A DNA stretch of 64,000 nt from assembly GCA_001465115.1 (NCBI GenBank), contig CP013614.1, forward strand, positions 3,162,001-3,226,000. The letters are read 5' to 3'. Position numbers and translations under genes: made by a program. The DNA is from Enterococcus silesiacus. GTDB lineage: Bacteria; Bacillota; Bacilli; Lactobacillales; Enterococcaceae. Under the pieces are notes generated by a model. The model had not been told where the DNA came from and ran no database searches. It saw nothing but the letters and a program-made list of their open reading frames with translations. This document shows positions 14,221 to 42,735 of the stretch, piece after piece. How positions within the stretch are numbered: the first letter of the stretch is position 1; each line of letters starts with the position of its first letter.

Positions 14221-17004
14221 ATGAAAAAAAGAAAAATTCAACTACCCATTATTTTACTTTTATCATTCTTTTTTATAGTTGGAGCGGTTTTATGGGGAAA
14301 TCAGGTTTCAGCAGCATTACCAAGTGATGTAGCAAATGCTAATTTTGACTGGCGCAAGCTTGATAAAGATGCACAAGGCAACGACAACATTGATTTATCA
14401 ACCTTTACAAAAGTCGATAAGAATACACCTGTCAAATTGACAGGAGGAGCTTTTGAAAAAAGCCGCAGACGCTACTATCTGTTTTTCGGTCATGTTGGGG
14501 CTGGCTCTAATCCGGTTAAATACGATCTTGACACGAAAAGTTTCAACGTAGCCGGCAATATGTTGGCAACCTTGGGACCAAGTCAAGAATTACCTATTTT
14601 GGGTCCTGTAATGATCGGTGTGAAAGAAGAAGCGGGTACTGGTAAACAGCAGGTTTTTGGCTATGATTACAATTATGCGAATAACTCTGTTGGTAGTAGT
14701 GGGAGCAACTTTGACATCGGGGATGCACAGTACAATGCGTTGTCTAGTTCATGGCAAGTGACCAGAAGTGGTTACACATCAAACTCCATGATAAGTAATC
14801 AAAGAAGAGATAATTATATTTTAGAGCAATACGTGAAAGCAAATGAAATCGTCTCTTATGGCTACTACGGACGTGGTACTGGTGATAATGGGTCCACAGA
14901 TATGAAATATCTGCCTGTCAGAGTTCATGGTTATGTCGATAACTTTGAAGAAGGACGAATTCGCTATGATGTCAGTTTTTATAATGATAGTGGGGTCACT
15001 ACAAATTATGCAATGACACATGGCTCTCATATGGACGTTGGTGGGAATCATACAAGCTCCAGATTATACTCTAATAACCAATTTGGTCTTTACTTTGATG
15101 AACCGACATCAACACTTGCGGATAAAATAGCAGCACGTATCTACTTTTATACCACTTTAGGATATGGGACGAATCCTGGACCAAATGATTTTAAAGTTGG
15201 GGATTTATATGATAGTAGCTTGACGCTCTATAGAATAAGTAATTGGAATGCTATCCACATGAGTAAGTGGGGCGAGTGGGGAACTGGAACCACGTTTTAC
15301 CCAACGGCTATAACGGGAAAGAACAATGCGTATGAAGCATGGGATCCAGTGATGCCACAAGGCTACTATTATAACTTAAAACATCCTGTGTTTGCCTTAA
15401 GATGGCCAGTGCTAACAGTTATGCCAGGGCAAGTCGGCATGGGCGCATTAGATATGTCTATTGAAGAGCCAGCAGATATTAAGCCATTTACCACAAAAAA
15501 ATATGAAAATGCAACGGGTGTAAATCCAGCTAAAAATTTAGTCGGTGATATCCTTGATTTTGAAGTTACAGCTTTAAATAAAGGATTATTATCTTCGTGG
15601 AACCAAGTCACTTTAGAAGACAATTTGCCGCCAGAATTAGAGCTGGATACAGAATCACTGACACTTATTGATACTCTAGGAGTAGAAACAAAACTTAACC
15701 CTACTGTATATGATAAAGCAACCCATACAATTAAGGTAGGAACATATAATATTCCGATTAACACAGGTGTTACGATAAAGTATAAAGCGAAGATTATCTC
15801 AGGTGCCAATACCACAACAATCAATCGATTTAAAGCATATAATGCTGCCGATGAAAAAGATGATACCTCTGTTGAGATCCCGATTGGGTCAGAACCTGCA
15901 AAACCAGAAGCAATTAAAACGTATACGAATGATACTTCTGATGATGCAAATAATCGAGTGGAAGATACCTTGTCATTCGAACTGACAGCTAGTAATACTG
16001 GTGGTAGTGTCTGGGAAGGGGTTACCTGGAAAGATACGTACCCAAAAGAGCTAGAACTTGATAAGTTTTCATTTGAATTAGTAGGTGCAGATGGTGTTGC
16101 GACACACGTTGTACCAACATTTACAGAAGACCCTCATACATTTGAAATTAAAGAGTTAGATGCGTTAGACGTTGCACCAGGCAAACAAATTAAAGTCCGA
16201 TACAAGGCGAAAATTATTGGTGGGGCAAATACAACCATCATTAATAAATTTGAAGCAAACAATCAACACAATCAAAAAGCAGAAGCGCAAGTTGAAATCG
16301 ATGTGTTACCAAAAAAGGTTCTTGAAAAAGAACTACTTGTGGAATTTTTAGATAAAGATGGTAACAAGCGTCATGAACCGATCAGCATAACTGCAAAGGT
16401 TGGCGAATTCGTGAAGTTGAAAGACATTGCTGAAACAGCAAATTCTGACCTCTATAATGCACTGAAAATGGTGGAAAGCGAGGGGTATGAACTAGTTACT
16501 CGACCACTCAATGAAGCCTCAGTTGAAATCATAGATGGAGATAACCGGGTACAATACATCTTTGATGGGAAGCTGATCTTTGTCTCTGCCCCACCTAAAA
16601 TTGATTTTGGCGTGAGATCAGGTGCAAATTTAGATGAATTAACTCTTGAAAAACCAGCGTATGATAAAACTCAACCTTTGAAAGTTCGCGATAATCGAGC
16701 AGGTAATCGTGAATGGGCGTTAACGGTGAAGTTGACAACACCATTTACTACAGCAGATACAAACTCTGTTTTACCAGTTGCTTTAAGTTACAAACGCGAT
16801 ACAACGGAAGATGTTCTAACAGCTGCAGGCGATGCGGCATTGATTACACAGCAGTCAGGTATTCAAGGTATGGACTATGATATCAGTAAACAAGAGTGGG
16901 AAGATAAAAATAATGGCTTTAAGTTTAAACTTGAAAAAGGTCAAACTAAAAAGATGGAAGAGTATACGGCAACACTGCTGTATACGTTGAGTGAGACCAA
17001 GTGA
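14221..17004 (+). CDS. Large secreted multidomain adhesin-like protein with C-terminal WxL domain (locus 1)
   Basis: First structural gene of WxL locus 1, 927 residues. It has a signal peptide of about 30 residues (cleavage near VSAALP). The N-terminal region of about 400 residues is rich in Tyr/Asn/Gly and unassigned, with no obvious likeness to the corresponding part of the locus 2 protein. Two DUF11-like Ig modules follow (about 440-557 and 560-697; each contains KYKAKII or RYKAKII and GANTT), then a MucBP-like segment (about 700-783). The last 130 residues are a WxL domain: first motif REWALTVKL, distal motif YTATLLYTLSE. WxL domains bind peptidoglycan non-covalently. Probably a surface adhesin displayed with the other locus products. 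Start after AAAGGAGGAG. Confidence 0.85.
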   Translation: MKKRKIQLPIILLLSFFFIVGAVLWGNQVSAALPSDVANANFDWRKLDKDAQGNDNIDLSTFTKVDKNTPVKLTGGAFEKSRRRYYLFFGHVGAGSNPVKYDLDTKSFNVAGNMLATLGPSQELPILGPVMIGVKEEAGTGKQQVFGYDYNYANNSVGSSGSNFDIGDAQYNALSSSWQVTRSGYTSNSMISNQRRDNYILEQYVKANEIVSYGYYGRGTGDNGSTDMKYLPVRVHGYVDNFEEGRIRYDVSFYNDSGVTTNYAMTHGSHMDVGGNHTSSRLYSNNQFGLYFDEPTSTLADKIAARIYFYTTLGYGTNPGPNDFKVGDLYDSSLTLYRISNWNAIHMSKWGEWGTGTTFYPTAITGKNNAYEAWDPVMPQGYYYNLKHPVFALRWPVLTVMPGQVGMGALDMSIEEPADIKPFTTKKYENATGVNPAKNLVGDILDFEVTALNKGLLSSWNQVTLEDNLPPELELDTESLTLIDTLGVETKLNPTVYDKATHTIKVGTYNIPINTGVTIKYKAKIISGANTTTINRFKAYNAADEKDDTSVEIPIGSEPAKPEAIKTYTNDTSDDANNRVEDTLSFELTASNTGGSVWEGVTWKDTYPKELELDKFSFELVGADGVATHVVPTFTEDPHTFEIKELDALDVAPGKQIKVRYKAKIIGGANTTIINKFEANNQHNQKAEAQVEIDVLPKKVLEKELLVEFLDKDGNKRHEPISITAKVGEFVKLKDIAETANSDLYNALKMVESEGYELVTRPLNEASVEIIDGDNRVQYIFDGKLIFVSAPPKIDFGVRSGANLDELTLEKPAYDKTQPLKVRDNRAGNREWALTVKLTTPFTTADTNSVLPVALSYKRDTTEDVLTAAGDAALITQQSGIQGMDYDISKQEWEDKNNGFKFKLEKGQTKKMEEYTATLLYTLSETK

Positions 17005-17022
17005 TACTAGAGGAGAAAAAAC

Positions 17023-17385
17023 ATGAAAAATAATAAAAAGTTGTCTGTCTTGATATTCTCTGTTGTCATTTGGCTCCTACTTTCAATTAGCCCCATCTCT
17101 TGTGTGCACGCTGAGGAAGAAACAATCGGTGGTGCAGTTCAAACAAACGGGGAAATTACGTTTTTTGACGAAGCGACACTGTCATCCACGACAGAATCAA
17201 GTAAACCGTCAGACTCTTCAGATGAACCGCTATCAGAGCCCAAGCCTAAAGGCAGATTTCCCTCTACAGGGGAACTTGTGAAAGCGAGTGTCTCTATTAG
17301 TGGCATCGTCCTAATTGTGATCTTAGCCTGTGTTTATCTTTGGAAGCAGAAAAAAAGAAAACAAGCGGGAGGGAGTAAGCAATGA
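17023..17385 (+). CDS. Small sortase-anchored protein with FPSTG motif (locus 1)
   Basis: A protein of 120 residues with signal peptide (cleavage near VHAEEE), a short segment GGAVQTNGEITFFDE, a Ser/Pro/Glu-rich linker, and a C-terminal sorting signal: GRFPSTGEL, a hydrophobic helix and a KQKKRKQ tail. The motif departs from canonical LPXTG at the first position (Phe). Small sortase substrates like this are a standard member of WxL clusters and may be the covalent wall anchor of the complex. The segment GGxxQTNGxITFF is conserved in the locus 2 paralogue. AGGAG lies upstream; the stop overlaps the next ATG by four bases. Confidence 0.88.
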   Translation: MKNNKKLSVLIFSVVIWLLLSISPISCVHAEEETIGGAVQTNGEITFFDEATLSSTTESSKPSDSSDEPLSEPKPKGRFPSTGELVKASVSISGIVLIVILACVYLWKQKKRKQAGGSKQ

Positions 17386-18185
17386 AAATCACGAAAACAA
17401 CGTCGATAATTGCTGGAATCCTGCTTACGACTCTGTTCTTGATTGATGCAAACAGCTCGACTGTTTACGCAGATGATCGTGTACAAAGTGGGGGACATAT
17501 TTCGTTTGTTGGGGAATACGATAAAGGGGTCCGAGATCCTGAATATCCAAATAATATTGTTGATCCAGGACCAAGCCCTAGCACGAAAGGCCCATTGCGG
17601 CTTGATTTTGTACCACAATTGAATTTTCATCGAAATAAAATAGCTGGCAAAGATATGGTTTATCCAGTCAATGCCCAATTATTCCATGATGAAACTGACG
17701 CAAGAGGAAATTTTGTACAAGTATCAGATAATCGAGGCGCGGCTCTCGGCTGGACATTACAGCTGAGACAAGAAGCGCAATTTAATAATATGGAATCAAA
17801 TCATCAACTAAAAGGTGCATTTCTCTCTTTGGATAAGTCATGGGCTAATTCTAATCAAACACAAGCGAAGGCACCAATCGTTTCTAAAGATGTGATTCTG
17901 ATGGATCATATTGGTGAAACATACAATTTAGCTGATGCTAAGTCCGGAGCAGGAGAGGGAAGCTGGCTGATTTCATTTGGAGCATCAATAACTAATCCAA
18001 ATGGAGATGAAAGTACGCTAACGCCAAAAGTGGATACAGAGAATAAGCCAATTCTTGATCCAGCATTTGAAAACAAACAAATGGTGGAAAATAATGCGAT
18101 TACGTTGTCTATCCCTGGTGCAACGAAAAAAGAATCCGGAACTTACACTACGGTGTTAACTTGGCTATTAGCCGAGTTGCCATAA
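17382..18185 (+). CDS. WxL domain surface protein (locus 1, first)
   Basis: Secreted protein of 267 residues made almost wholly of a WxL domain. Signal peptide ends near VYADD. Conserved landmarks are GxISFVGEYDKG, GPLRLDFVPQLNF, the proximal motif GWTLQLRQEAQF and the distal motif YTTVLTWLLAELP at the extreme C-terminus. It would be held on the wall by non-covalent binding to peptidoglycan. ATG 17382 overlaps the stop of the small anchored protein and follows GGAGGGAG inside it, so translation is coupled. The locus 2 protein at 31449 is a close paralogue. Confidence 0.9.
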   Translation: MKITKTTSIIAGILLTTLFLIDANSSTVYADDRVQSGGHISFVGEYDKGVRDPEYPNNIVDPGPSPSTKGPLRLDFVPQLNFHRNKIAGKDMVYPVNAQLFHDETDARGNFVQVSDNRGAALGWTLQLRQEAQFNNMESNHQLKGAFLSLDKSWANSNQTQAKAPIVSKDVILMDHIGETYNLADAKSGAGEGSWLISFGASITNPNGDESTLTPKVDTENKPILDPAFENKQMVENNAITLSIPGATKKESGTYTTVLTWLLAELP

Positions 18186-18216
18186 ATCAAACACACACTA
18201 TTAGGAGGAAATACAA

Positions 18217-19014
18217 ATGAAATTAACACACAAATTATGTGGAGCAGCTTTATTATCTGTAATTGGAGTAGCTCTTGCAGTACCAAACACGACTAAAGCG
18301 GTAGATTCAGTGAAAGATGGAACAGGACACATTAAATTTACTTTAACAGATGATGGCACTGAAATTACTGACCCAGGTTCTGAAACAACAATTACCAACA
18401 TTCCTGATGTAACAAACCCAGGAACATTCGGAATCATGGCTGTAACACCACTAGAATTTGAAACACACAGTGTATTAACTGCACAAACTACTCGTACTTA
18501 TGATGCCTCTCCATTTAAAGCAAATGCAGGCAGTACAGATCCAGATTATCCAGAATTTGACGTACAAAACTTTGTAAAATACAGAGACATCCGTACAACT
18601 GACGTTCACAAATATTCATTATCCGCAGCGTTGACTCAAAACTTCAAAGATACAGCAAGTGGTACGTACCTTACTGGATCAGAATTAAACTTTAAAAATA
18701 TTGATACAACTTCACTTGATGCAGTAGCTCAACCAACAGGTGTATCAGGAACAAATAAATTAGTTGCAAATGCAGACAACTCACTACCAGGTGCTTCAGC
18801 AGAATTCATCAGAAATGATGTAGCGGACAATACAGGTGCTGGGAATATCGAAATGAACTTTGGTAGACACACATTAGATACAGCAGGAAACTCTGTATCA
18901 TTAACAATTCCAACAACAACTTCAATCGGTATTGGTGATTACAATGCAGTTATTACTTGGACGTTATCTGAAACAATTGTACCGGAAACACCAGTTACTC
19001 CAGAAGGCGAATAA
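18217..19014 (+). CDS. WxL domain surface protein (locus 1, second; proximal Trp missing)
   Basis: Secreted protein of 265 residues. Signal peptide MKLTHKLCGAALLSVIG..., cleavage near TKAVD. The distal motif is intact (YNAVITWTLSE) but followed by an unusual Pro/Glu-rich tail ETPVTPEGE, and the proximal motif reads KYSLSAAL, with Tyr in place of Trp. The same change (KYEITAQI) is found in the locus 2 paralogue. The translation start region AGGAGGAAATACAA-ATG and the first 40 coding bases are nearly identical to locus 2, which suggests strong expression. A stem-loop follows before the next gene. Confidence 0.88.
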   Translation: MKLTHKLCGAALLSVIGVALAVPNTTKAVDSVKDGTGHIKFTLTDDGTEITDPGSETTITNIPDVTNPGTFGIMAVTPLEFETHSVLTAQTTRTYDASPFKANAGSTDPDYPEFDVQNFVKYRDIRTTDVHKYSLSAALTQNFKDTASGTYLTGSELNFKNIDTTSLDAVAQPTGVSGTNKLVANADNSLPGASAEFIRNDVADNTGAGNIEMNFGRHTLDTAGNSVSLTIPTTTSIGIGDYNAVITWTLSETIVPETPVTPEGE

Positions 19015-19041
19015 GCACAAAAAAAGATTGCTTCATGATAG

Positions 19042-19075
19042 CAAGGTTCACCGACTCACTGAGTCGGTGACCTTG
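19042..19075 (+). promoter_or_regulatory. Stem-loop between the second WxL gene and the WxL-interacting protein gene (locus 1)
   Basis: CAAGGTTCACCGACTCA is followed directly by its near-perfect complement ending CCTTG, then TTTCATC. A strong hairpin with a weak T-run. A hairpin with related arms is at the equivalent place in locus 2. It fits partial termination or RNA processing that makes more of the upstream WxL messages than of the downstream machinery. Confidence 0.7.
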
Positions 19076-19103
19076 TTTCATCATGGAAAGAAGGGACAAA
19101 AGA

Positions 19104-20192
19104 ATGAACATGAAGAAAAAAGCAGTGACGATTTCTCTAATCGTTTTATACATAGTAGGTCTGATAATACCTGGTCAGCAAGCGCTAGCCGAAGAATCAC
19201 CCAAAAAAGGCACGAGTACAGCGAGTCCTACTGGATTTACGTACCGAGTGCTCCAACCTGAAAATCAGCAAAATAAGAAAGTTGGTTATTTTGATTTAAA
19301 AATGTCACCTAGCCAAAAACAAACCGTTCAGATCGAACTTGGTAATGAGAGCACTGAGGAAATAGAAGTCGATATAGCCATCAATGGTGCCAAGACAAAT
19401 GGTAATGGTGTAATTGAATATGGGCCAACAGGGATTGAAAATGATACATCGCTAAAATATGCTTTTGAAGACTTAGTCAAAGGACCGAAGTCTGTAAAAA
19501 TTCCAGGCAATGGAACAGCAATGTTAGACTTGGAAATTACCATGCCAAAAGTGAGTTTTGATGGGGTAGTTTCTGGTGGGATTCAATTAAAAAATGCTCA
19601 AGATGAAAAAATGCGTGCTGAAAAGAAAGGTGTTATCAATGAGTATGCCTTTTTAGTAGGAATGTTGTTAACAGAAACAGAAACAGCTGTAATGCCTGAA
19701 TTGAACTTAAATAAGGTTTCTGCTGGGTTAAGCAACTACCGTAACAGCATTTTTGTCAATTTTTCAAACATTAAAGCAGCCTATCTAGAGAATTTGACCT
19801 TAGATGTTCAAGTGATGAAAAAAGGATCAGATAATGTTTTATATGAAGCAAAAAAAGCAAGTATGCGTGTGGCACCAAACTCAAGAGTTGATTTTCCTGT
19901 GTCAATGAATGGTGAAAAAATGGAACCTGGCAAATATATAGCCCATATCGTCGCGACAGCTGGGGATAAAAAATGGGAATGGGATGAAGAATTTACGGTG
20001 ACTGATGAAGAAGCCGATAAATACAATAAGCAAGATGTCAGCCTAATCCAAGAAAATGGGATTGATTGGAAAATCATCGTAGCGATCGTTGCAGGTGTGT
20101 TTGTCCTTGTTCTTGTTATTTTCTTCGTTGTGCGAGCTGTAAATAATCAGAAAAAAACCAAAAATAAATCGATGTCGAAAAAAAGAAAATGA
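19104..20192 (+). CDS. WxL-interacting protein: PF06030 + PF11797 (DUF916/DUF3324) membrane-anchored protein (locus 1)
   Basis: About 362 residues. Signal peptide ends near ALAEE. Two successive extracytoplasmic modules follow: the peptidoglycan-binding type domain (FTYRVLQPENQQ to about residue 170, with GYFDLKMSPSQKQTVQIEL) and the host-binding type domain (ending with WEWDEEFTVTDEEADKYN), then one transmembrane helix and a Lys-rich cytoplasmic tail. Proteins of this family bind WxL proteins and hold them at the surface. The open frame starts at 19083, but GAAGGGACAAAAG-ATG selects 19104. Paralogue in locus 2 at 33177. Confidence 0.92.
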   Translation: MNMKKKAVTISLIVLYIVGLIIPGQQALAEESPKKGTSTASPTGFTYRVLQPENQQNKKVGYFDLKMSPSQKQTVQIELGNESTEEIEVDIAINGAKTNGNGVIEYGPTGIENDTSLKYAFEDLVKGPKSVKIPGNGTAMLDLEITMPKVSFDGVVSGGIQLKNAQDEKMRAEKKGVINEYAFLVGMLLTETETAVMPELNLNKVSAGLSNYRNSIFVNFSNIKAAYLENLTLDVQVMKKGSDNVLYEAKKASMRVAPNSRVDFPVSMNGEKMEPGKYIAHIVATAGDKKWEWDEEFTVTDEEADKYNKQDVSLIQENGIDWKIIVAIVAGVFVLVLVIFFVVRAVNNQKKTKNKSMSKKRK

Positions 20193-20220
20193 TCGTTCAT
20201 AAATAGAGGGGGATGGAAAG

Positions 20221-20886
20221 ATGAGTATTTTAGATTGGTCGTTTATAACGTTACTATCCAGTGCCCTTCTCTTTGTTCTTTTTGCAGGGTTAGCCTTTTT
20301 GCTCGCTTTTTCAACGAACAAAAAACTGAAAAGATTTAGAAGAAAGCCACCAAAAGATAAAGAAAAACGGAAAAGGTTTCTATCTGAGCGTAACAGCTTA
20401 GACAAGCAAAAGAGCCGGCAAAGAAATTGGGGATTTTTCTGTATTTTGATGATGTTACTGACAGGCTGCGGTGCGTTTTATTCGAGATATTATCAAATGA
20501 CGAATTTAGAAGCAAGTGATTCAGAAGCTATTGTGCAAAGTTATTACTTAACGGATGATATCATGGTGCAATTAACAAATATTCAAAATGATGAAAATTC
20601 TGAAAAGTCGATTAAAAATCTCCGAGATGTCGCTTCACGTTTGGCAAGCTACGGCACTAAAATGGCGTATCCAGGCTTGACGGAAGAAGGTCAAAAAACG
20701 TTGGCCCGTCACTATGCATTGATCAAAAACTTAGGTGTCAACTTGTCGGTTCAAACAACCGAAACCTTGTCGGACCAGCAAGTGATGGAGGGGTATGTAA
20801 AAGACATTGAGAAAGTCAAAGAAAGCCAAGCAAAAGTCTTTAAAACCTTCAAGGTCAATGAGTCAGCACTAAAGCAGAAGAAATAG
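20221..20886 (+). CDS. Unknown two-TM membrane protein of the WxL locus (locus 1)
   Basis: Protein of 221 residues with no family I recognise. A TM helix at about residues 8-31 starts from MSILDW, then comes a very basic loop (KKLKRFRRKPPKDKEKRKR), a second TM at about 69-88, and an extracytoplasmic C-terminal domain of about 130 residues, helical, ending VFKTFKVNESALKQKK. TM2 contains LTGCG, but this internal Cys is absent from the paralogue, so it is unlikely to be a lipobox. The locus 2 protein shares start, topology, ARYYQ/SRYYQ, TNLE, IIQSY and the C-terminal tail. Always between the WxL-interacting protein and the signal peptidases, which points to a role in the assembly machinery. Confidence 0.78.
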   Translation: MSILDWSFITLLSSALLFVLFAGLAFLLAFSTNKKLKRFRRKPPKDKEKRKRFLSERNSLDKQKSRQRNWGFFCILMMLLTGCGAFYSRYYQMTNLEASDSEAIVQSYYLTDDIMVQLTNIQNDENSEKSIKNLRDVASRLASYGTKMAYPGLTEEGQKTLARHYALIKNLGVNLSVQTTETLSDQQVMEGYVKDIEKVKESQAKVFKTFKVNESALKQKK

Positions 20887-20907
20887 TTCTTAGCTGAGGT
20901 AAATTCG

Positions 20908-21627
20908 ATGGATAAAGTAAAAAAAAAGACGACTACTACACAAAAAAAGACAAGACCGTTGGTTAAAAAGTCCAGTCACCAAAAAAGACAAAAAGCTAAC
21001 CATGTTCGGCCGAGCAAAGAAATACCAAACATCAACGCACATAAGAAGAAAAAGAAGCAATCTAAAAAACAAAAAGAGCAGTTAAAGAAGCGGAAACGAA
21101 ACAAAGTGTTGATGGAGATTAGCATGGCTTTGGTGATCTCCGCATTCTTGATTTGGCTAATAATGTTTCTAACCATTGCCATACCCAAGGTAGATGGGTA
21201 TTCAATGACCCCTACAACGAATGATAGAGATCGAATGCTTGTGAATAAGTGGGCTAAGATCAAACGACTTAATCTGATTTACTTTAAAGAGCCTAGAAAA
21301 GATGAAAAAATGATTCGTCGGGTGATTGGGTTACCAGGAGATACGTTATTTTACAAGGATGGACAATTGTTTGTTAATGGGAATGAAGTCGCGGAACGCT
21401 TTTTGTCTGATACCTATCAATTAAAAGACCAAGAGCAGACGATGCCTGACTTCACTTTGCAAGAGATACTAAATGTAAATAGTGTTCCTAACGGTAAATA
21501 CTTTGTTCTTGGCGATAACCGCGCCTATGCTACAGATAGCCGTTATTTTGGTTTTGTGGATGAAAAAGATATTGTCGGTGTAGTGAAAATTCGCTTATTT
21601 CCGATCCACTCAATGACTCACTTTTAA
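20908..21627 (+). CDS. Signal peptidase I-like protein with Ser/Arg in place of Ser/Lys (locus 1)
   Basis: Protein of 239 residues of the S26 signal peptidase family. A very basic cytoplasmic N-terminus of about 65 residues precedes one TM helix (about 70-92), then box B with the nucleophile Ser99 (VDGYSMTPT), box D (KMIRRVIGLPGD) and box E (VLGDNRAYATDSR). The general-base Lys of box D (normally in YVKRVIGLPGD) is replaced by Arg137 (codon CGT at 21316). The locus 2 paralogue has the same change. Such a protein may be inactive as a peptidase and act as a chaperone, or use a different base. It is followed directly by a canonical signal peptidase. Confidence 0.88.
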   Translation: MDKVKKKTTTTQKKTRPLVKKSSHQKRQKANHVRPSKEIPNINAHKKKKKQSKKQKEQLKKRKRNKVLMEISMALVISAFLIWLIMFLTIAIPKVDGYSMTPTTNDRDRMLVNKWAKIKRLNLIYFKEPRKDEKMIRRVIGLPGDTLFYKDGQLFVNGNEVAERFLSDTYQLKDQEQTMPDFTLQEILNVNSVPNGKYFVLGDNRAYATDSRYFGFVDEKDIVGVVKIRLFPIHSMTHF

Positions 21628-21648
21628 TGCAATGAAGGGAACGAAGCG

Positions 21649-22362
21649 ATGAAAAAGCAACGACCAGAAGAGATCAGAAAAAGACCAAAGAGAAAAAGTC
21701 CTGCTGGTTACTCTAAGAAAAAAAATCAAAACAGAACAGTAAGCAAACAGAAGAGTAAACGTCTGTTATTAGAAGCCAAAAGCAAACAAACAGCTGCTGG
21801 GAAGTATCACAACATTCAAGGTTGGGTAGCAAATTTCTTTTTTCTCTTCGTTTTCTTGGCAGGTATTGTCTTTTTAATACAAGTAAAGTCACATCAAATA
21901 GATGGCCACTCAATGAATCCGACATTCAATGATAAAGATCGCATACTTGTCATCAAAGGGCAAGAGCCAAAACGCTATGAAATCATTACGTTTGAACCTA
22001 AAAGTGCACCAGGAGACTCCTATGTAAAACGCGTAATTGGTTTGCCAGGGGATGTGATTTGGGTCGAAGGTACCTCTTTATATATCAACTATCAAGCCGA
22101 AAATAATCCAGCAAATCTTTATGGACACAATCTTGCCGCCAAAGATTTGCCAGATGGAACGACTCGGATCACTGTAAGTGAATGTGTTGCAAAAGAGTTA
22201 GCCCCATACTATCAAATTCCAGAAAATGCCTATTTTGTTCAAGGCGATAATCGCAACCATTCAGACGATAGTCGAGTGCTAGGATTGATCGATCGCAAAC
22301 AAATTGAAGGTGTAGTCGCCTATCGTTATTATCCCTTCAATAAAATCGGTGTGGTGAGATAA
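21649..22362 (+). CDS. Signal peptidase I with intact Ser/Lys dyad (locus 1)
   Basis: Protein of 237 residues, membrane-anchored type I signal peptidase. Basic N-terminus of about 55 residues, one TM helix (60-80), catalytic Ser88 (IDGHSMNPT), catalytic Lys127 (SYVKRVIGLPGD) and box E GDNRNHSDDSR. It would cleave signal peptides, possibly those of the locus proteins. Paired with the Ser/Arg protein 21 bases upstream; an equivalent pair stands in locus 2. It carries an insertion of about 40 residues between box D and box E (LYINYQAENNPANLYG). ATG 21649 follows GAAGGGAACGAAGCG. Confidence 0.92.
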   Translation: MKKQRPEEIRKRPKRKSPAGYSKKKNQNRTVSKQKSKRLLLEAKSKQTAAGKYHNIQGWVANFFFLFVFLAGIVFLIQVKSHQIDGHSMNPTFNDKDRILVIKGQEPKRYEIITFEPKSAPGDSYVKRVIGLPGDVIWVEGTSLYINYQAENNPANLYGHNLAAKDLPDGTTRITVSECVAKELAPYYQIPENAYFVQGDNRNHSDDSRVLGLIDRKQIEGVVAYRYYPFNKIGVVR

Positions 22363-22385
22363 CAGAGGATGTTTAGGAAAAGAAA

Positions 22386-33066: not shown

Positions 33067-33111
33067 GTCGTAAGACGGTAATCGATCAAATCATATTATA
33101 AAAGCATCGCT

Positions 33112-33151: not shown

Positions 33152-33176
33152 CTTGGTGAAGAGAAAGGTCAAAAAA

Positions 33177-34247: not shown

Positions 34248-34296
34248 TCGTAAAAAAAAGTGTATTGCTATTATTTAAAGGAGGAGGAGGAACGAA

Positions 34297-34962: not shown

Positions 34963-34989
34963 TGTTAAAGAAAGTATCAGGAACAGAGA

Positions 34990-35697
34990 ATGACAAATCA
35001 AAAAAAACAAAAACGACCTGTTCGTCAAGTCAAAGATGACTCCTTCCAGCCTAAAAAAAAGCGGCGCAAGCCAGCAACGAAAAAAAAGAGCGCAACAAAT
35101 TCTGCGGGTGTCTCTAAAAAAAGACAAACCCAACAGAAGAAGCGAAGAAAGCAAAAAAAATACAAGCGAATGCTAACAGAGCTGATTTTAACTGTGCTGA
35201 TTTCTAGTGTGCTACTGTTGCTGATCAGCTTTTTGACGATTTCTTTGCCAAGGGTGGAAGGTTATTCTATGATGCCGACATTAGAAGATCACGATAGAGT
35301 ATTTGTGAATAAATTAGGGAAGCTAAAACGGTTCAAATTGGTTTATTACAAAGATCCAAAAAGTCAGGCAACGACCATTCGACGGATTATTGGAACACCA
35401 AAAGAATCCTTATATTATAAAGAAGATCGTTTATTCATCAATGATCAAGAGGTTGTTGAACGATTTATTGCTGATCAGATTGCTAAAACTAAGCAGAGTA
35501 ACAGTGTATTTACCAAGGATTTTTCTTTGTCGAAAGATATGGGAGACGATCAAATTCCCGCAGGAAAATATGTTGTTCTGGGCGATAATCGATCGTATGC
35601 AGCGGACAGTCGGATGTTTGGCTATATTGATGAAAAAGATATTATCGGAGTTGTGGAAGCAAGAATCTTTCCAATCCACCGGATGACTCGTTTCTAA
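34990..35697 (+). CDS. Signal peptidase I-like protein with Ser/Arg in place of Ser/Lys (locus 2)
   Basis: A protein of 235 residues. A very basic N-terminus of about 60 residues, TM helix (about 62-86), box B with Ser93 (VEGYSMMPTLED), box D reading TTIRRIIGTPKES where the catalytic Lys is Arg131 and the usual GLPGD is GTPKE, and box E LGDNRSYAADSR. Box D is more degenerate than in the locus 1 paralogue, but the nucleophile Ser and box E are kept. This pattern suggests a maintained, non-standard function rather than simple decay. Confidence 0.86.
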   Translation: MTNQKKQKRPVRQVKDDSFQPKKKRRKPATKKKSATNSAGVSKKRQTQQKKRRKQKKYKRMLTELILTVLISSVLLLLISFLTISLPRVEGYSMMPTLEDHDRVFVNKLGKLKRFKLVYYKDPKSQATTIRRIIGTPKESLYYKEDRLFINDQEVVERFIADQIAKTKQSNSVFTKDFSLSKDMGDDQIPAGKYVVLGDNRSYAADSRMFGYIDEKDIIGVVEARIFPIHRMTRF

Positions 35698-35721
35698 AAA
35701 AGAGAAAGTGAACGTAAATCA

Positions 35722-36318
35722 ATGCAAAAAAAAGTAAAAAAGAACCCGTTAGTTGGGGAAAGTAATCCTAAAAAAAATCGTTCAATCATCAAAGGACTTT
35801 TTTTATTTAGCCTCGTTATTGCCTGCCTTTGGTTTTTGATTTGTGTGAAAACACACCGCATTGATGGGCATTCTATGGAGCCGACGCTAATAAATAATGA
35901 TCGAGTCCTGGTTTTTAAAAAAGTGGCTCCGAAAAAGCGTTCATTAATTACCTTTAGCCCAAAAGACAAACCAAATAGCATGTATGTTAAGCGAGTGATT
36001 GGAATGCCAGGAGACAAAATTCAGCTAGAGCAAACATCATTGACAATCTTTTCTGCCAAGAATGAGAAGCAAAAGAAAGTAGCTTTATTTGAAGGCGATC
36101 AGCCTGATGGAACAACTACGATAGCGCTATCTGCAGAAGTCGCAAGATTAGTTGAGCATTTAACTGAAATTCCAGAAAATAAATATTTTGTTTTAGGTGA
36201 TAATCGAAAAAAATCTAGAGATAGCCGCCAATTAGGACTGATCGATCGGTCGCAGATCGAAGGTGTTGTGAAGTATCGCTACTACCCGATATCAACACTA
36301 GGTTGTATAGATGAATAA
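35722..36318 (+). CDS. Signal peptidase I with intact Ser/Lys dyad (locus 2)
   Basis: A protein of 198 residues. Short basic N-terminus, TM helix (about 22-42), catalytic Ser51 (IDGHSMEPTL), catalytic Lys90 (MYVKRVIGMPGD) and box E LGDNRKKSRDSR. Shorter at the N-terminus than the locus 1 enzyme. Its last codons overlap the first possible ATG of the next gene (36311) by eight bases. Confidence 0.92.
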   Translation: MQKKVKKNPLVGESNPKKNRSIIKGLFLFSLVIACLWFLICVKTHRIDGHSMEPTLINNDRVLVFKKVAPKKRSLITFSPKDKPNSMYVKRVIGMPGDKIQLEQTSLTIFSAKNEKQKKVALFEGDQPDGTTTIALSAEVARLVEHLTEIPENKYFVLGDNRKKSRDSRQLGLIDRSQIEGVVKYRYYPISTLGCIDE

Positions 36319-36343
36319 ATCACAGAAATTAGTGAGGAGAACT

Positions 36344-38956
36344 ATGAAGAAAATCAAAGCGTTTATACAGGTGAATTACTTAGCAGTATTGGCAAGTTTT
36401 TTTCTGCCAATACTTATTTTGGCATTTGCGTACTATCAACAGGGAATCTATTATGGCAGTGAGACAACGCTGTTAGCCAGTGATGCATTTGCCCAGTTTT
36501 CCAATTTTTATGCCAGCTTTAATAATATGCTACATGGAAAGCAAGATGCTTTATACACATGGTACGGTTCTTTGGGATTAAATTACTGGGCCTTAATGAG
36601 TTATTATTTAAATGGAATTTTTACCCCGATTGTCTTTTTCTTTGACAACTTACATATACCCGACGCCATGTATGTGATTACTTTACTAAAGTTTGGCTGT
36701 ATGGGACTTAGTTTTTGGACATTTACTTATTTTACTTTCAAGTTGCCTCAATGGGTAAAAATTGGCATGAGCATCAGCTATGCTTTGATGAGTTACGGGA
36801 TTGCTTATTCACCGATGATCATGTGGTTGGATGCACTGGTGTATCTACCGTTAGTGATTCTAGGCATTCATCGCTTGATGGATGAGAAAAAGCCTGGACT
36901 GTTGTTTATCAGCTATCTCTTGTTGTTTTTATCTAATTTTTATATGGCATTTATGGTAGGCGTATTTACTTTTTTATATTTTTTCGCCAAATTATGCACA
37001 AATTGGGTCAAATACAAAAAAACAATTGGGTTTTATCTGATCACTTCATTGCTTGCAGGTGGCGCTTCGATGATCACGATTTTACCGACAATTTTTGATT
37101 TGAGTAATAACGGAGAAAAATTAACGGAAATGACACGCTTATTGACGCCGGATACTGGTCCTTGGGATATGATCACCAAGAGTATGAGCCTGGTTTATGA
37201 CACCTCTAAATATGAAGCCGCGCCATTTATCTATGCAGGTCTGGTACCGTTAATCTTCTGTCTGTTTTATTTTGTCACTAAAAAAACTGCTTTACGGGAC
37301 AAACTTATTTATGGAAGTTTAGGCTTGTTGCTGGTGGTTAGTGTGTATATTCAGCCATTGAATTTATTCTGGCATGGACTGCATTCACCAAATATGTTTC
37401 TGTTTAGATTTAGCTTTTTGGTTTCATTTTTCATTTTGCTTTTTGCAGGTTATGGTCTGGAGAAAATGGAAAAACAAGAATTGAATCAGCTTGTCAATAT
37501 CGGAATTGTTTTATTGGGTGTATTCATCAGTGCGTATTTATTTTCTAATAAAAAAAGATATGACTATCTTACAAGAGAGTCATTGGTCGTTTCGGTCGTT
37601 TTTCTGTTGTTATATGTAGGATTGGCTTTTGTATATTATCACAATCGCTATCGCAAATTGCTGCCGTTGATCTTTTTGGTGCTGGTCGGAGCGGAGTTAA
37701 CAATGAATACGCAAGCGATGGTCGCAGGAGTTCGCAAGGATTGGAATTATCCAAAGCGGGAATTGTACAGTGAGTATTATCGCGATATCAAGACATTGAC
37801 GGATGAAACGAAGCGAATAACGCCTGATTTTTATAGAATGGCGAATGTCGACCCTATTTCTCATAATGAAAGTTTTAATTATGGGTACAGCGGAGTCTCT
37901 ATGTTTTCATCGATTCGTAATCGGCATTCATCTAGTTACATGAACCAGCTAGGTTTTCGTTCAACTGGGACGAATTTGAACATTGATTACAAAAACAATA
38001 CCTTATTAATGGATTCATTATTAGGAATCAAATTTAACCTAGGAAGACAAGCACCAATGAAGTACGGCTTCACTAAAATTGCGCATCAAGGTGCGTACGA
38101 TTTGTATGAAAATCAGTATGCCTTGCCATTAGGAATGCTAACGGATAAAGAGATTTATCAGAAAGAAGCCTTTCATAATCAAGAAAGTCTGCTTAATCAT
38201 CTGGCTGGAAAAAAACAAGCACTATTTTCTTTCAAAGAACCTAAAGAAATCGCTAAAGAAAATGTGATCGTTCAAAAAGAGGGAGACATTGTTTTTCTAT
38301 CAGAAGAAAAACCGTCTGCTGATAAAAGCATGACCTGGTCTGTTGAGGTACCAGCTGATTCCCAAGCCTATTTGAACTTACTTGTAGAAGATAGCGGAGC
38401 GATGCGGGATGCAGTGGCAGAAGTGACGGTTAACGGGATCAGTCGATCAGCGGATATGCAAAGAACAGGTCAGTATTATAATCTTGGCTACTATGAACAG
38501 GCAGCTACTGTAACAGTAAAAGTGGCCTTTCGTGGTGTTCCTGTTATTAAAATGGCACGTCCAGATACCTTGATCTTAAATACCAAAGTGTTTAAATCCA
38601 CGATCGAAGCAGCGCAAAAAAAGGGTGTTGAGTTTAAAGGCACAGGTAGAAAATTAACGACAGATGTGTCTTTAGAAAAAGAACAGGTTTTATTTACCAC
38701 CATTCCTTACGATAAAGGCTGGAAAGCCTATGTAGATGGAAAAGTAGTCCCAGTTAAAGCCGTAGAAGAAGCCTTTTTAGCGATGCACATACCAGCGGGT
38801 AAGCATCAGGTAGAACTGGTCTTTTTACCACAAGGCTTTGTTTTAGGCGCCAGCTTATTCATTAGCTGTATTGCGTTATTTTCTCTATTTTTCTGGTATA
38901 CAAGGAAGAATAGAGTGTTGAATAGAGAGGAACATTTAGATGAAAACAATGTATAA
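36344..38956 (+). CDS. YfhO-family polytopic membrane protein (GT-C-like, locus 2)
   Basis: About 870 residues with the same topology as the locus 1 copy. First external loop LLASDAFAQFSNFYAS with YTWYGSLGLNYWA; middle landmark LLAGGASMITILPTIFDLSNNGE, shared almost exactly with locus 1; end block TTIPYDKGWKAYVDGKVV. The open frame starts at 36311, but GAGGAGAACT-ATG at 36344 is the better start and aligns with the other copy. The 3' end overlaps the following lipoprotein gene by 17 bases, so they are coupled. Probably a glycosyltransferase or lipid-linked sugar acceptor protein; no CsbB-like partner is in the window. Confidence 0.87.
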   Translation: MKKIKAFIQVNYLAVLASFFLPILILAFAYYQQGIYYGSETTLLASDAFAQFSNFYASFNNMLHGKQDALYTWYGSLGLNYWALMSYYLNGIFTPIVFFFDNLHIPDAMYVITLLKFGCMGLSFWTFTYFTFKLPQWVKIGMSISYALMSYGIAYSPMIMWLDALVYLPLVILGIHRLMDEKKPGLLFISYLLLFLSNFYMAFMVGVFTFLYFFAKLCTNWVKYKKTIGFYLITSLLAGGASMITILPTIFDLSNNGEKLTEMTRLLTPDTGPWDMITKSMSLVYDTSKYEAAPFIYAGLVPLIFCLFYFVTKKTALRDKLIYGSLGLLLVVSVYIQPLNLFWHGLHSPNMFLFRFSFLVSFFILLFAGYGLEKMEKQELNQLVNIGIVLLGVFISAYLFSNKKRYDYLTRESLVVSVVFLLLYVGLAFVYYHNRYRKLLPLIFLVLVGAELTMNTQAMVAGVRKDWNYPKRELYSEYYRDIKTLTDETKRITPDFYRMANVDPISHNESFNYGYSGVSMFSSIRNRHSSSYMNQLGFRSTGTNLNIDYKNNTLLMDSLLGIKFNLGRQAPMKYGFTKIAHQGAYDLYENQYALPLGMLTDKEIYQKEAFHNQESLLNHLAGKKQALFSFKEPKEIAKENVIVQKEGDIVFLSEEKPSADKSMTWSVEVPADSQAYLNLLVEDSGAMRDAVAEVTVNGISRSADMQRTGQYYNLGYYEQAATVTVKVAFRGVPVIKMARPDTLILNTKVFKSTIEAAQKKGVEFKGTGRKLTTDVSLEKEQVLFTTIPYDKGWKAYVDGKVVPVKAVEEAFLAMHIPAGKHQVELVFLPQGFVLGASLFISCIALFSLFFWYTRKNRVLNREEHLDENNV

Positions 38957-39917
38957 AAAAATATTTTTTGTTGCTCTGTTTTTAGTTTTATTGACGGGCT
39001 GTTCAGATGGACTATCTAAAGATAAGGCAGTTTTTTCAGGCCAAGGTGTTAGCTATGCCTTTCGATTGCCTGCTACTTGGAAAGAAAGTAGCAATGTTCA
39101 GGAAACGTATAATCGTCAAGCAGTCTATGGTGCTGAAGACACTAAAAGTAATTCCCATTTGTTTGTTTTAACGTATTTGAAAAAAGAAGTAAATCGGGAT
39201 GATTTTGCTAAAAAGACCAGACTTGAATTACAAAAAAGATACAACTATAAAGAGCTATCTGGCGTTTACATGAAAGAATACGAAATTAATCACCATAAAG
39301 CCATCAAATATACTTTAAATACGAAATTTAAAGAAAAAGACGTGTGGGCCCACTTTTATTATGTGGAAACGGAGCACGGTTTTGTGGAAATGATTTTTTA
39401 TTCGGCAAATGACGGAGAGTATAAAAAAAGATCAGAGATCATCGATGCCAGCGTAGAAACGTTAGTAGAAACAGAAGCTAAAACAGCCGATTCAACAGTA
39501 GGAGAATCTGGGGTAGAAGATGAGCAAGGCGATACGATTGAAGTTAAAAATGAGCGAATGACGATTGTGATCGATGGTGTAATGAAGTTACCTGATGGCG
39601 ATAAAAAATCACTGTTGATCATTCGTGCCCAAGTGACTAATAACGGGGATGCGCCATTGACTCCAAATGATTGCCAACAACTAATAAAAGCGACACAAAA
39701 AGAAAAGGTCTTAGCTCAAGGAACGATTTCAGAAGAAAATCCTGAATTAGATGTAAAAGGTTTGGTGAAAAATGGCACGAAATCAATTAATAAAGGTGAA
39801 ACGATTGAGGCGGCACTAGTGTATGAATTAAGCACAGATGATCAACAAGTACTATTGAATTTTTCTAAAGAGGAATTTAAAGATCAGCCAGCTCGCATGA
39901 TCAATTTATCAGAATGA
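38940..39917 (+). CDS. Lipoprotein with PsbP/Mog1-like N-domain and DUF5067-like C-domain (locus 2)
   Basis: A protein of 325 residues. Signal peptide with lipobox LLTGC (Cys about residue 21). First domain SYAFRLPATWKESS... to VEMIFYSAND, acidic linker, then a beta-rich domain (MTIVIDGVMKLPDGDKKSLLIIRAQV). Same organisation as the locus 1 lipoprotein at 25086. It starts within the end of the YfhO gene with GAGAGGAAC upstream of ATG 38940. Confidence 0.78.
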   Translation: MKTMYKKIFFVALFLVLLTGCSDGLSKDKAVFSGQGVSYAFRLPATWKESSNVQETYNRQAVYGAEDTKSNSHLFVLTYLKKEVNRDDFAKKTRLELQKRYNYKELSGVYMKEYEINHHKAIKYTLNTKFKEKDVWAHFYYVETEHGFVEMIFYSANDGEYKKRSEIIDASVETLVETEAKTADSTVGESGVEDEQGDTIEVKNERMTIVIDGVMKLPDGDKKSLLIIRAQVTNNGDAPLTPNDCQQLIKATQKEKVLAQGTISEENPELDVKGLVKNGTKSINKGETIEAALVYELSTDDQQVLLNFSKEEFKDQPARMINLSE

Positions 39918-39937
39918 TGATTAGAAAGGAATAATCA

Positions 39938-40675
39938 ATGAAAAAAATAATACGGATAGTCTCAGCCTTCCTGTTGCTTCTGGCGTTAAGCGGCTGTGCG
40001 GCATCGAATGGGCATGACACGTTGAATGCCAAAGATAAACCTTTGACTTGGCAAGGAAAAAAAGAAAAACCGTTTGGAAAATTTGAATACAGAAAATTAG
40101 ATGAAGCAGAGGCTAAAAAATTATTAGAAGATAAGTTTTTAGTAGAGCTGCCACAGTATTATGAAGATATCAATATTGTGTTTAACAAGCATTTTGAAAC
40201 GGAAGCTAGTAAGCTAGAACCCGTTGAGTATTCCATTACAGCAAATGGGGAGAGCCTTTATTTTAGAGCAATCAACAAATATTCTCAAAATGAAGAGTTA
40301 AAATTATTTACGTATATCGATTTTGAGTATCAGTTTGATCAAGAGAAAAAGCAAGCAACCTTAAAAAATCAGACAATAACAATTGCAAACCCAACGCAAG
40401 AAGGACAGCTTCCTAAAAATGATTTTGAGGAAACCGTCAAAGATTTGAGCAGTTTAATGAATATGAATATAAGGAAAAATTTAGAAGACCTGCAGACGTT
40501 GATGGACAAAGAGAAAGGGAAGCTTGGCGACGCTGTTTTACAAGTATATGAAAATACCAAGGATGCCAAAGCGGCCAATGAATTGCAAAAGTCAATTGCA
40601 GTAGAGTTAAACGAGCAAGAGCATATTATACAGACATTTTTCTATATTACAGATACGATCGATGAGGATCAGTAA
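39938..40675 (+). CDS. Lipoprotein of unknown function (locus 2)
   Basis: A protein of 245 residues, paralogue of the gene at 26042. Signal peptide with lipobox LALSGC (Cys about residue 21). It opens with LTWQGKKEKPFGKFEYRKL and has alternating charged helices and strands; no known family recognised. RBS AGAAAGGAA precedes ATG 39938. The next gene follows after 13 bases. Confidence 0.77.
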   Translation: MKKIIRIVSAFLLLLALSGCAASNGHDTLNAKDKPLTWQGKKEKPFGKFEYRKLDEAEAKKLLEDKFLVELPQYYEDINIVFNKHFETEASKLEPVEYSITANGESLYFRAINKYSQNEELKLFTYIDFEYQFDQEKKQATLKNQTITIANPTQEGQLPKNDFEETVKDLSSLMNMNIRKNLEDLQTLMDKEKGKLGDAVLQVYENTKDAKAANELQKSIAVELNEQEHIIQTFFYITDTIDEDQ

Positions 40676-40688: not shown

Positions 40689-42392
40689 ATGAATAAATTC
40701 AAAAACATTCGACAGAATAAACCAATTTTTTTTCTATTACTATATAGTCTGTTTCTGATCTTGAGTATTGGTAGTATTTATTGGTCATTGATCCATCGTC
40801 AGCAGTTATTTTTAGGTGATGATATTCAGTTTCATTTGGGACGGATTGAAGGATTGAAATTGTCTATCTTTAATGGCGATTTCTTTCCTAAGATCAATTA
40901 TTTTTTCTTAAATGGAATGGGGTATGCTTCAAATATTTTTTATCCAGATTTATTGTTATATCCGGCCGCTTTATTAAGGCTTGCGGGGGTATCTATTGCT
41001 CAATCGTATATTATTTATCTGATCGGGATCAATTTTTTAACGTTTGTCATCAGCTATCATGCGTTTTATTTCTGGCGTAAGAGCCCAGCGAAAAGTCTGA
41101 TGTTCTCACTCTTATACACGTTAGCTTCGTATCGTTTAAGTGATGTGATTTTTCGAGCAGCTTTAGGTGAAATTTTAGCCTTGATGGTACTGCCGATCGC
41201 ATTTGTCGGATTATTAAAAATTGTTGATGGAGAATATCGGCAGTTTTACTGGTTGACGATTGGGATGGCCTTGCTCTTTGCGAGTCATTTGATCACGGCA
41301 TTTATCTTCTGTTTGTTTATTGTGGTATTTTTGCTGCTGAATTGGCGTAAGCTAGTTCAAGAAAAACAAAGAGTCGTATTTTTGGCTATTGCAACAGTGA
41401 GCACGGTGGGGCTAGTCGCGCTGTACTTATTTCCTATGCTGGAGCAACTCCAATTCCAAAAGCTAGCTGTTCAAACAGATCAGATGTTTTATTTGGAAAA
41501 AACAGCCCAATCTTTTTCTTATTATTTGAAAAATGCCTGGAACAATCTTGGATTTAATAACGTGGGTCTATTGCTCTTGGTTATGATGGTTCTTTTCATA
41601 GTCAGAATAAAGAATATTTCCAAGTTAGGGAAACAGCTGTTGTTTAGTAGCGTGCTCTTTTTATTTTTGGCGACTAATTATTTTCCGTATCGTTATTTCA
41701 ATCAAACCTTGTTGAACACTATTCAGTTTCCTTGGCGTTTTTTTACAATAGTAACCTTATGTATGTGTTGGTTAGTCAGTGACCAGCTGGATGTTTTGCT
41801 TCCACAAAAAAAATGGGTTCAACGAATGACTCTGCCTTTAATTGGACTAGTGCTGATTGTTTCCAGTCTTTTTTATCAGTCAGGCTTAAAAACGACGGTC
41901 TTGGAAAAAGAGCGAATAGTTCCCTATTCATTCTTCTCTGAATTAAATCCAGAAGTCTTGGGTTATGGCCGTGAATATTTGCCCAGTGGGTTTAAATATA
42001 TGATGGATCCTCATGGCTTGATCATTGAACCGCCGACGACTAAGGTAAGTAATCTGAGCCGGACTTACAATGTAATGACTTTGGATTTTCAAGAAGCTGA
42101 AAAAACCAGACTACTCTTTCCAATTATTTATTATAAAGGGTACCAAGTAGAAGTAGAAGGTCAGGCCACGGTCAGTAAAATCAACAAAAGCACGATTCCA
42201 TATGGCTTTTGTGAAGTTGAGGTGACGGGAACGGGGCGTCTAACTTTTTGGTATGAAGGAACACTGGTGCAAAAAATTTCTGCAGGAGTCTCCTTGATTT
42301 CAGCCGTGCTCTTATTGTGTTATATCCTCCTGACAAATGGAAATAACACAGAGTGGAAAAAAATTAAAGCGCGAATCAAGACAAAGGACTAG
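40689..42392 (+). CDS. Polytopic membrane protein resembling PTPS-related (PF10131) proteins; locus 2 only
   Basis: A protein of 567 residues with roughly eleven TM helices, a short extracytoplasmic C-terminal domain and a final TM helix. The first external loop contains FLGDDIQFHLGRIEGLK and FFPKINYFFLNGMGYASN, a pattern I associate with the membrane family annotated as 6-pyruvoyl-tetrahydropterin synthase-related, which is GT-C-like. It has the same general design as YfhO: an acidic pair in loop 1 and a sugar-binding-like C-terminal beta domain (KGYQVEVEGQATVSKI). No counterpart in locus 1. GGGGAAGTAG precedes ATG 40689. Confidence 0.75.
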   Translation: MNKFKNIRQNKPIFFLLLYSLFLILSIGSIYWSLIHRQQLFLGDDIQFHLGRIEGLKLSIFNGDFFPKINYFFLNGMGYASNIFYPDLLLYPAALLRLAGVSIAQSYIIYLIGINFLTFVISYHAFYFWRKSPAKSLMFSLLYTLASYRLSDVIFRAALGEILALMVLPIAFVGLLKIVDGEYRQFYWLTIGMALLFASHLITAFIFCLFIVVFLLLNWRKLVQEKQRVVFLAIATVSTVGLVALYLFPMLEQLQFQKLAVQTDQMFYLEKTAQSFSYYLKNAWNNLGFNNVGLLLLVMMVLFIVRIKNISKLGKQLLFSSVLFLFLATNYFPYRYFNQTLLNTIQFPWRFFTIVTLCMCWLVSDQLDVLLPQKKWVQRMTLPLIGLVLIVSSLFYQSGLKTTVLEKERIVPYSFFSELNPEVLGYGREYLPSGFKYMMDPHGLIIEPPTTKVSNLSRTYNVMTLDFQEAEKTRLLFPIIYYKGYQVEVEGQATVSKINKSTIPYGFCEVEVTGTGRLTFWYEGTLVQKISAGVSLISAVLLLCYILLTNGNNTEWKKIKARIKTKD

Positions 42393-42513
42393 AAAAATCT
42401 CAGACTATAGATGGATGTATCTCTCAAGAATAAAAAGTACAATGAAACAGTAGAGAAATGACAAAGAGGAACAGCCACTAAATAAAAGTCGAAAGAGATT
42501 GGGGAAATGAATC

Positions 42514-42735
42514 ATGAAGCGTTTATATAAAACAGTAGTATTTGAGATGAGTTTGTATTATGGGTTACTGGCGATCGTTCTGCCATTGATTTATGCTGTG
42601 ACCTATCATATATCATTTATGTCCGTATTTAACTTAGAATGGCTTGCTGTGACGTTATTTATATACCCAATCGTGCTAGTTATATCAATGATTCGTTATG
42701 GCTATTATCGAGTAAGAAAAACGAGTCACTTTTAA
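42514..42735 (+). CDS. Small two-TM membrane protein
   Basis: A protein of 73 residues with two hydrophobic segments (about 10-32 and 43-62) and a basic C-terminus (RYGYYRVRKTSHF). No family recognised. A plausible ribosome site (GAGATTGGGG) lies upstream and a strong terminator follows at once, which supports a real gene. It stands 121 bases after the PTPS-like gene and closes locus 2. Confidence 0.6.
   Translation: MKRLYKTVVFEMSLYYGLLAIVLPLIYAVTYHISFMSVFNLEWLAVTLFIYPIVLVISMIRYGYYRVRKTSHF

Follow-up and report, generated by a model that had tools for sequence, protein, structure and literature searches.

A WxL cluster type with a dead signal peptidase in its core: two of ten copies lie side by side in Enterococcus silesiacus

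Introduction

Enterococci, lactobacilli, listeriae and related bacteria carry WxL proteins on their surface, and the assembly and wall attachment of these proteins still await an explanation. Here we analyse a window of 64,000 nucleotides from Enterococcus silesiacus (assembly GCA_001465115.1, contig CP013614.1; positions 3162001-3226000 of a single-contig genome of 3.93 Mb), within which coordinates are counted below unless genome positions are named. It contains two consecutive WxL loci, A (14221-26776) and B (27392-40675), which an earlier note on this DNA had described as the same eleven genes twice in order and as an extended, dedicated WxL system. We find that both belong to a new type of WxL cluster, in which a catalytically dead signal peptidase is a recurrent core part next to the WxL-interacting protein (WxLIP) and P221, an undescribed membrane protein of about 221 residues that recurs beside WxLIP.

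Results

Each of the two loci carries eleven genes in the same order and all on the forward strand, and a score matrix of A against B proteins gave reciprocal best matches for 11/11 gene pairs, with alignment scores 11-113 standard deviations above the shuffle mean (20 shuffles each). The claim of eleven genes repeated in order was thus borne out, genes at equal positions being each other's best match. Both loci open with a large WxL protein: A1 (14221-17004) is adhesin-like, with DUF11/isopeptide-forming repeats and a C-terminal WxL domain; B1 (27392-31045) has MucBP repeats, and its WxL domain is not called by Pfam, its C-terminus aligning with that of A1 (27.1% identity over aligned columns, as for all pairs below). 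A mini LPXTG protein of the CscD type follows (A2, 17023-17385, N-terminal motif VQTNGEITF, NCBIfam NF053819 at 2.6e-27; B2, 31058-31447, motif IQTNGQITF; 48.7%), both members scoring above the cut-off of that model. Two small WxL proteins come next, the first being A3 (17382-18185; Pfam WxL 1e-42, AlphaFold2 (AF2) model), with the free N-terminal motif VQSGGHISF at residues 34-42, and B3 (31392-32249; Pfam; 48.9%), whose reading frame overlaps B2 at its start and probably begins further downstream than called. The second pair is A4 (18217-19014; Pfam WxL 5.8e-17) and B4 (32281-33066; Pfam; 36.6%).

Behind these secreted parts lie WxLIP (A5, 19083-20192, PF06030 and PF11797; B5, 33153-34247, Pfam; 50.7%) and P221 (A6, 20221-20886; B6, 34297-34962, recognised by alignment to A6), which, as expected from the earlier reading, is found in both loci, with 40.3% identity over 221/221 residues. 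Two signal peptidase homologues follow, a first one with a Ser/Arg pair in place of the Ser/Lys dyad (A7, 20908-21627, Ser99/Arg137, PF10502 4.4e-42; B7, 34990-35697, PF10502 far above cut-off; 45.5%) and a second one, a signal peptidase I (SPase I) whose Ser/Lys dyad is intact (A8, 21649-22362, PF10502 2.5e-37; B8, 35722-36318, by dyad reading; 50.3%). Most alike are the YfhO-family membrane proteins A9 (22386-25001; PF09586 5e-219) and B9 (36311-38956; PF09586 1.4e-220), at 56.5%; both match PF09586 over its full length, and A9 has a first-loop motif, ASDxxxQ, in common with another YfhO of this genome (genome position 2878826). We take the YfhO family to be a predicted class of GT-C type glycosyltransferases. 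Two lipoproteins close each locus, A10 (25086-26030) and B10 (38940-39917) with DUF5067 (Pfam; 33.4%) and A11 (26036-26776) and B11 (39938-40675, by alignment to A11; 26.8%) with no family match in a Pfam scan. Otherwise the Pfam families of both loci are WxL, WxLIP, Peptidase_S26 (twice per locus) and YfhO. That the secreted parts would be the most diverged is only partly true, A3/B3 being as conserved as the peptidases and the lipoproteins among the least conserved genes.

When the genome was searched with A6, ten P221 matches were found, which makes A and B two of ten loci, and 35 kb read around each of the other eight revealed one seven-gene order shared by all ten: large WxL, mini LPXTG, WxL, WxL, WxLIP, P221 and signal peptidase homologue. 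An active peptidase together with YfhO and two lipoproteins is confined to loci A, B and C, and locus D has one lipoprotein. WxLIP has 26 matches in the genome, ten of them beside P221, which leaves 16 WxLIPs without it; the P221-type WxLIPs are split from 15 others by one branch (support 88, FastTree, several long branches). Beyond this genome, P221 occurs in 22/22 genomes of the genus group, which includes E. crotali, E. caccae and E. termitis, with 5-13 copies each, in 32/105 genomes of the family and in 36/395 genomes of the order sample (in one, G126, only at E 1.5e-6).

Using P221 as bait, we compiled 93 distinct loci by hand, of which the own genus group gave 56 (including the ten own loci), named Enterococcus records 6, further genera of the family 19 and a second family 12. 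P221 is 218-230 residues long throughout, and WxLIP lies immediately upstream of it in 93/93 loci of the two families. The five upstream genes are found in exact order in 79/93 and all seven core genes in 73/93. Among the 14 other upstream orders, five have a small open reading frame between WxLb and WxLIP (L081, L093, L126, L134, L143), four a large WxL that went unrecognised in its place (L090, L118, L123, L149), two a second WxLb (L122, L125), two an LPXTG protein that was not called (L095, L120) and one a contig edge (L146). The pseudo-peptidase is present in 87/93 loci, directly after P221 in 83 and one gene further in four (in L149 with a large WxL in between). A second peptidase occupies the second place in 37/93, YfhO stands within four genes in 32/93, 30 of them with a second peptidase, and the exact run of pseudo-peptidase, SPase, YfhO, LipoA and LipoB occurs in 19/93. 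Distances among the extension genes follow those of the core (Mantel r 0.81-0.90, each above the highest of 300 permutations). Hence, the Ser/Arg pseudo-peptidase is core, and to it some loci add an optional extension of active peptidase, YfhO and lipoproteins. The neighbourhood search therefore supports the proposal of an extended, dedicated system whose extra genes travel with WxL genes, and it corrects the notion of an added peptidase pair, of which the Ser/Lys member is an optional extra and the Ser/Arg member belongs to the core.

The catalytic dyad is intact in 0/87 first peptidases. Their dyad positions read S/R in 52, G/R in 22, A/R in 6, M/R in 2, A/K in 2 and S/Q, G/V and S/L in one each (L120 and L135 were also read by eye). 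By comparison, the second peptidase is Ser/Lys in 37/37 loci, including A8 and B8; four further rows of second peptidases turned out to be pseudo-peptidases displaced by an intervening open reading frame. A quick tree built from WxLa, WxLIP and P221, and hence without the peptidase itself, requires Ser to be lost or gained at the Ser site no fewer than 15 times, and box E (GDN..DSR) is kept in 79/87 first peptidases. Repeated change at the Ser site with box E mostly kept suggests a fold that is largely retained and a catalysis that was free to go. A7 and B7 fit this picture, with S26 fold and boxes present and Ser/Arg instead of the dyad, and together with the presence of such a protein in 87/93 loci, loss of the dyad throughout marks them as core pseudoenzymes. 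The N-terminal tail of the pseudo-peptidases in front of the membrane span is long and very basic, with a median of 61 residues and 27 Lys/Arg (span found in 86/87). Among 17 S26 matches in the genome, ten are pseudo-peptidases, three their Ser/Lys partners and four lie elsewhere (Ser/Lys by eye), so that all are accounted for and none is left for the 16 WxLIPs without P221.

We also came across a stand-alone Ser/Lys signal peptidase of 286 residues with a very basic N-terminal tail (L164, genome positions 3577000-3583000), which is 42% identical to A8 over 246 residues and lies downstream of genes for a LysM-like protein (by eye) and a 223-residue membrane protein.

P221 matches no Pfam or NCBIfam family above cut-off and showed no specific relative by fold comparison. 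Among the relatives listed (120 of 144 found), none has a precomputed Pfam domain, and source names run to hypothetical, uncharacterised or 'YccF domain-containing'. The AF2 model of P221 is confident (predicted local-distance score, pLDDT, 92; predicted template-modelling score, pTM, 0.76) and has two long N-terminal helices, including the membrane spans, followed by four helices. The long helices are joined by a very basic stretch with 20 Lys/Arg in residues 31-70 (median of 93), and by the positive-inside rule the modelled four-helix bundle would lie outside the membrane, making it a predicted extracytoplasmic domain.

Other copies and relatives deserve mention. One P221 copy (G003:C5:258533-259156) has two in-frame TGA codons and is apparently decaying. 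In E. wangshanyuanii, a P221 relative adjoins a WxLIP gene on a mobilizable plasmid (71% of A6 aligned at 30% identity), which makes that plasmid a possible vehicle. There, the order is WxLIP, P221 relative, BspA-LRR, LPXTG and WxL (L167; NZ_CP021876.1, 117237-135710), in the surroundings of IS21 genes and a 'BsaA family SipW-dependent' protein, and no signal peptidase is annotated in the stretch. As for the mini LPXTG family model, four of 18 genomes (G120, G133, G195, G209; family f2; L168-L197) gave 26-38 matches each, and some of these matches fall on WxL N-termini or on LPXTG tails that belong to other proteins; these four hold a very large set of WxL-type clusters.

Upstream of A, we found a winged-helix regulator with a degenerate receiver (reg0, 13096-13809, forward strand; Pfam Trans_reg_C 4.3e-17), itself preceded by a pair of Mga-type regulators (9835-12876); similar pairs precede locus D and the B-type locus of a related genome, G010. 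Downstream of B lie a second, shorter YfhO-like membrane protein of 567 residues (40689-42392, forward strand) and a small secreted-looking protein (43007-43495, forward strand; its counterpart at the orthologous G010 site is 79% identical), followed by a sortase gene on the reverse strand (43614-44351; TIGR01076 above cut-off, class C model below cut-off). As the earlier note had stated, the regulators stand only before A and the two forward-strand genes only after B. Its Pfam assignments hold for the eleven genes and fail for 40689-42392, taken to be PF10131-like, which has no PF10131 match at E 0.1 or better and instead a weak YfhO match (PF09586 7.7e-12). Such a shorter YfhO-like protein also trails several extended loci elsewhere (L110, L076, L095, L147 and others).

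The flanking genes allowed us to trace the site in relatives. At the orthologous site of G010, MCRA (97%), Mga1, Mga2 and a regulator (66%) are followed by a lone B-type locus, the YfhO-like gene, the small protein and the sortase (95%); that regulator is the nearest match of reg0 among those compared. In G020 and G011, MCRA and the sortase flank no locus, and the sortase is 95-96% identical in relatives with one or zero loci. At this site, related species thus have no locus, one or two. When 85 loci were placed on a quick tree, the partner of A was a locus of G003 (G003.L129, support 100), which sits among other genes, and the next to join was C with its relatives (99); the partner of B was the G010 locus (G010.L110, support 100). 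A and B, presented before as a simple pair of consecutive paralogues, are hence two of ten loci and, on this one quick tree, not each other's closest relatives. We also note that A1 and its counterpart J1 in locus J (genome positions about 3691400-3694200) are 52.6% identical over 959 columns. Because this likeness along the whole length exceeds that of the A and J machinery (WxLIP, P221 and pseudo-peptidase, 34-48%), sequence comparison suggests that large WxL adhesins have been exchanged between loci.

Discussion

Our preferred reading, to which we give a probability of roughly 0.6, is that A and B, with eight further loci of this genome, represent a distinct WxL (csc) cluster type that has its own membrane assembly module. 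By analogy, assembly is the most likely function of P221 and the pseudo-peptidase. SipA of Streptococcus pyogenes, according to excerpts of PMC4049620, lacks the dyad and activity and keeps its peptide cleft, and pilus polymerisation depends on it; it is on this ground that we propose a holding role for the dead peptidase. The secreted parts would be the large WxL adhesin, two small WxL proteins and the mini LPXTG protein, and WxLIP, P221 and the dyad-less signal peptidase fold may form a clade-specific complex in the membrane. Beside WxLIP and P221, the dead peptidase would hold the signal-peptide or N-terminal region of the secreted subunits at the membrane, so that they could assemble before release and before the mini LPXTG protein is fixed by a sortase. 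Where the extension is present, its active peptidase, encoded next to the dead one, would release the subunits, and YfhO with the two lipoproteins may modify the complex or the surrounding wall. If this holds, P221 and the pseudo-peptidase would represent a recurrent assembly module with a pseudoenzyme family.

Several observations weigh against this reading. The 93 loci were picked by hand among the P221 matches listed, not at random, and gene roles outside A and B were assigned with profiles from the ten own loci. No pseudo-peptidase was detected in L083 and L087 (one genus) or in L117, L118, L119 and L122 (second family) within 3 kb downstream in three frames at E 10, and the 16 other WxLIPs of the genome lack both P221 and pseudo-peptidase; together, these six loci and 16 bare WxLIPs indicate that the module is dispensable for some WxL complexes. 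The box E pattern is missing in 8/87 first peptidases, and WxLIPs outside the P221 type also have the basic cytoplasmic tail. No sortase or pilin family is encoded within loci A or B. The pseudo-peptidase profile finds SPase I at 3e-40 and SipA at 0.001 over one short stretch; by profile it is nearer to active SPase I, and we use SipA as an analogy of role only. Finally, the Ser/Thr content of the mini LPXTG spacer is the same with and without YfhO (0.287 vs 0.285, p 0.85), which leaves glycosylation of the mini LPXTG protein unsupported.

We also weighed other explanations. One might see ordinary WxL adhesion clusters whose extra genes are neighbours without a common job, given that WxL clusters exist without these genes and that a second peptidase is absent from the second place in 56/93 loci; the linkage of P221 to WxLIP in all 93 loci from the two families and the co-varying distances make this improbable. 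Less probable still is an active Ser/Arg peptidase, working through an unusual dyad or another lysine and dedicated to WxL precursors. Ser is kept in 54/87 first peptidases and the SPase fold, judged by box E, in most, yet 33/87 have Gly, Ala or Met at that position, with repeated changes on the tree, the two A/K forms have the Lys and lost the Ser, and no one alternative dyad fits them all. As to the history of the site, if one locus had simply been duplicated in tandem within this lineage, adjacency, shared order and eleven homologous pairs would follow, but we consider this the least credible of these options: A groups with G003 and then the C group, B groups with G010, the orthologous site has only the B-type locus in G010 and bare flanks in G020 and G011, and the G003 relative of A lies among other genes. 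Most likely, the loci came to lie side by side by addition rather than tandem duplication, the simplest account being that A was inserted between B and its regulator and the alternative that A was lost in G010. The site is a documented instance of a surface locus set beside an older paralogue, and related species differ in having no locus there, one or two.

A reading that goes further, which we regard as tentative and rather more doubtful than the assembly module as such, is assembly by donor strands. The small WxL domain would be an incomplete beta-sandwich. WxLIP would complete it first, in a chaperone-like manner, and would then give way to a free N-terminal strand supplied by a second small WxL protein or by the mini LPXTG protein. 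The large WxL protein, with WxL domain and no motif, might form the tip, small WxL proteins the joints and the mini LPXTG protein, which has the motif only, the covalent anchor in the wall; the two signal peptidases, the dead and the live one, may control how these N-termini are freed. In support of this, a strand-like sequence motif at the free N-terminus is common to small WxL and mini LPXTG proteins and not found on the large WxL, the A3 motif is disordered in the AF2 model of A3, and that model resembles donor-strand pilins at modest scores, with pilins carrying the highest Foldseek probabilities (0.66-0.72) among the best 50 rows. However, all Z scores are under 8 and may reflect a common arrangement only, Foldseek gave no match at E 0.001, with unrelated proteins in its top E-value rows and pilins at E 0.15 and worse, and the WxL profile had no sequence match in the PDB at E 10. 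A reverse profile test was weaker (area under the curve 0.67 for WxLa, 0.87 for WxLb), a looser motif pattern fails in 37/90 WxLa and 46/93 WxLb, and WxLIP exceeds its own shuffles with that pattern (61 vs 12). Our literature searches, one of them too broad to exclude such work, brought up no paper on WxL fibres. Taken to its end, the idea is bold and, to our minds, a shade more doubtful again: WxL clusters might be donor-strand-exchange surface assemblies of Gram-positives, with WxLIP as chaperone and the mini LPXTG strand welded to peptidoglycan by sortase, and in the P221 type the dead peptidase might guard donor strands at the signal-peptide junction until the live one releases them. It rests on sequence and modest structural resemblance and provides a peptide-into-groove hypothesis for the mini LPXTG protein.

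Among known systems, chaperone-usher pili differ in their usher and outer membrane, neither of which Gram-positives are known to have, and the WxLa profile matches no PDB chain at E 10. The YfhO-type glycosyltransferases include A9 and B9 as full-length family members, here borne by the loci. In the TasA-TapA-SipW fibres of Bacillus subtilis, as far as excerpts of PMC9674648 describe them, SipW cleaves its clients, whereas the core protein here has no dyad, and donor-strand assembly of WxL proteins would be hypothetical. Also similar are SipA/LepA of the streptococcal pilus islands, which the same excerpts of PMC4049620 present as a signal peptidase fold without Ser/Lys dyad encoded beside the surface structure it serves, as are A7 and B7; these differ in their substitutions, resemble SPase I more by profile and are coupled to WxLIP and P221 in loci that are no pilus operons, the one sortase gene lying outside A and B on the opposite strand. 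Closest of all are the csc clusters cscA-D, which according to excerpts of PMC1534035, PMC9772566 and PMC10599100 comprise the same set of WxLIP (CscA), small WxL (CscB), large WxL (CscC) and mini LPXTG protein (CscD). Those excerpts do not name P221, a dead or active peptidase, YfhO or the lipoproteins, and in that of PMC1534035 (Siezen 2006), by the authors who defined the mini LPXTG protein, its alignment is called not informative and the protein is thought possibly to anchor others through as yet unknown interactions. What sets the present type apart from them is that P221 and a catalytically dead signal peptidase are core genes, joined in 30/93 loci by an active peptidase and YfhO and often by one or two lipoproteins.

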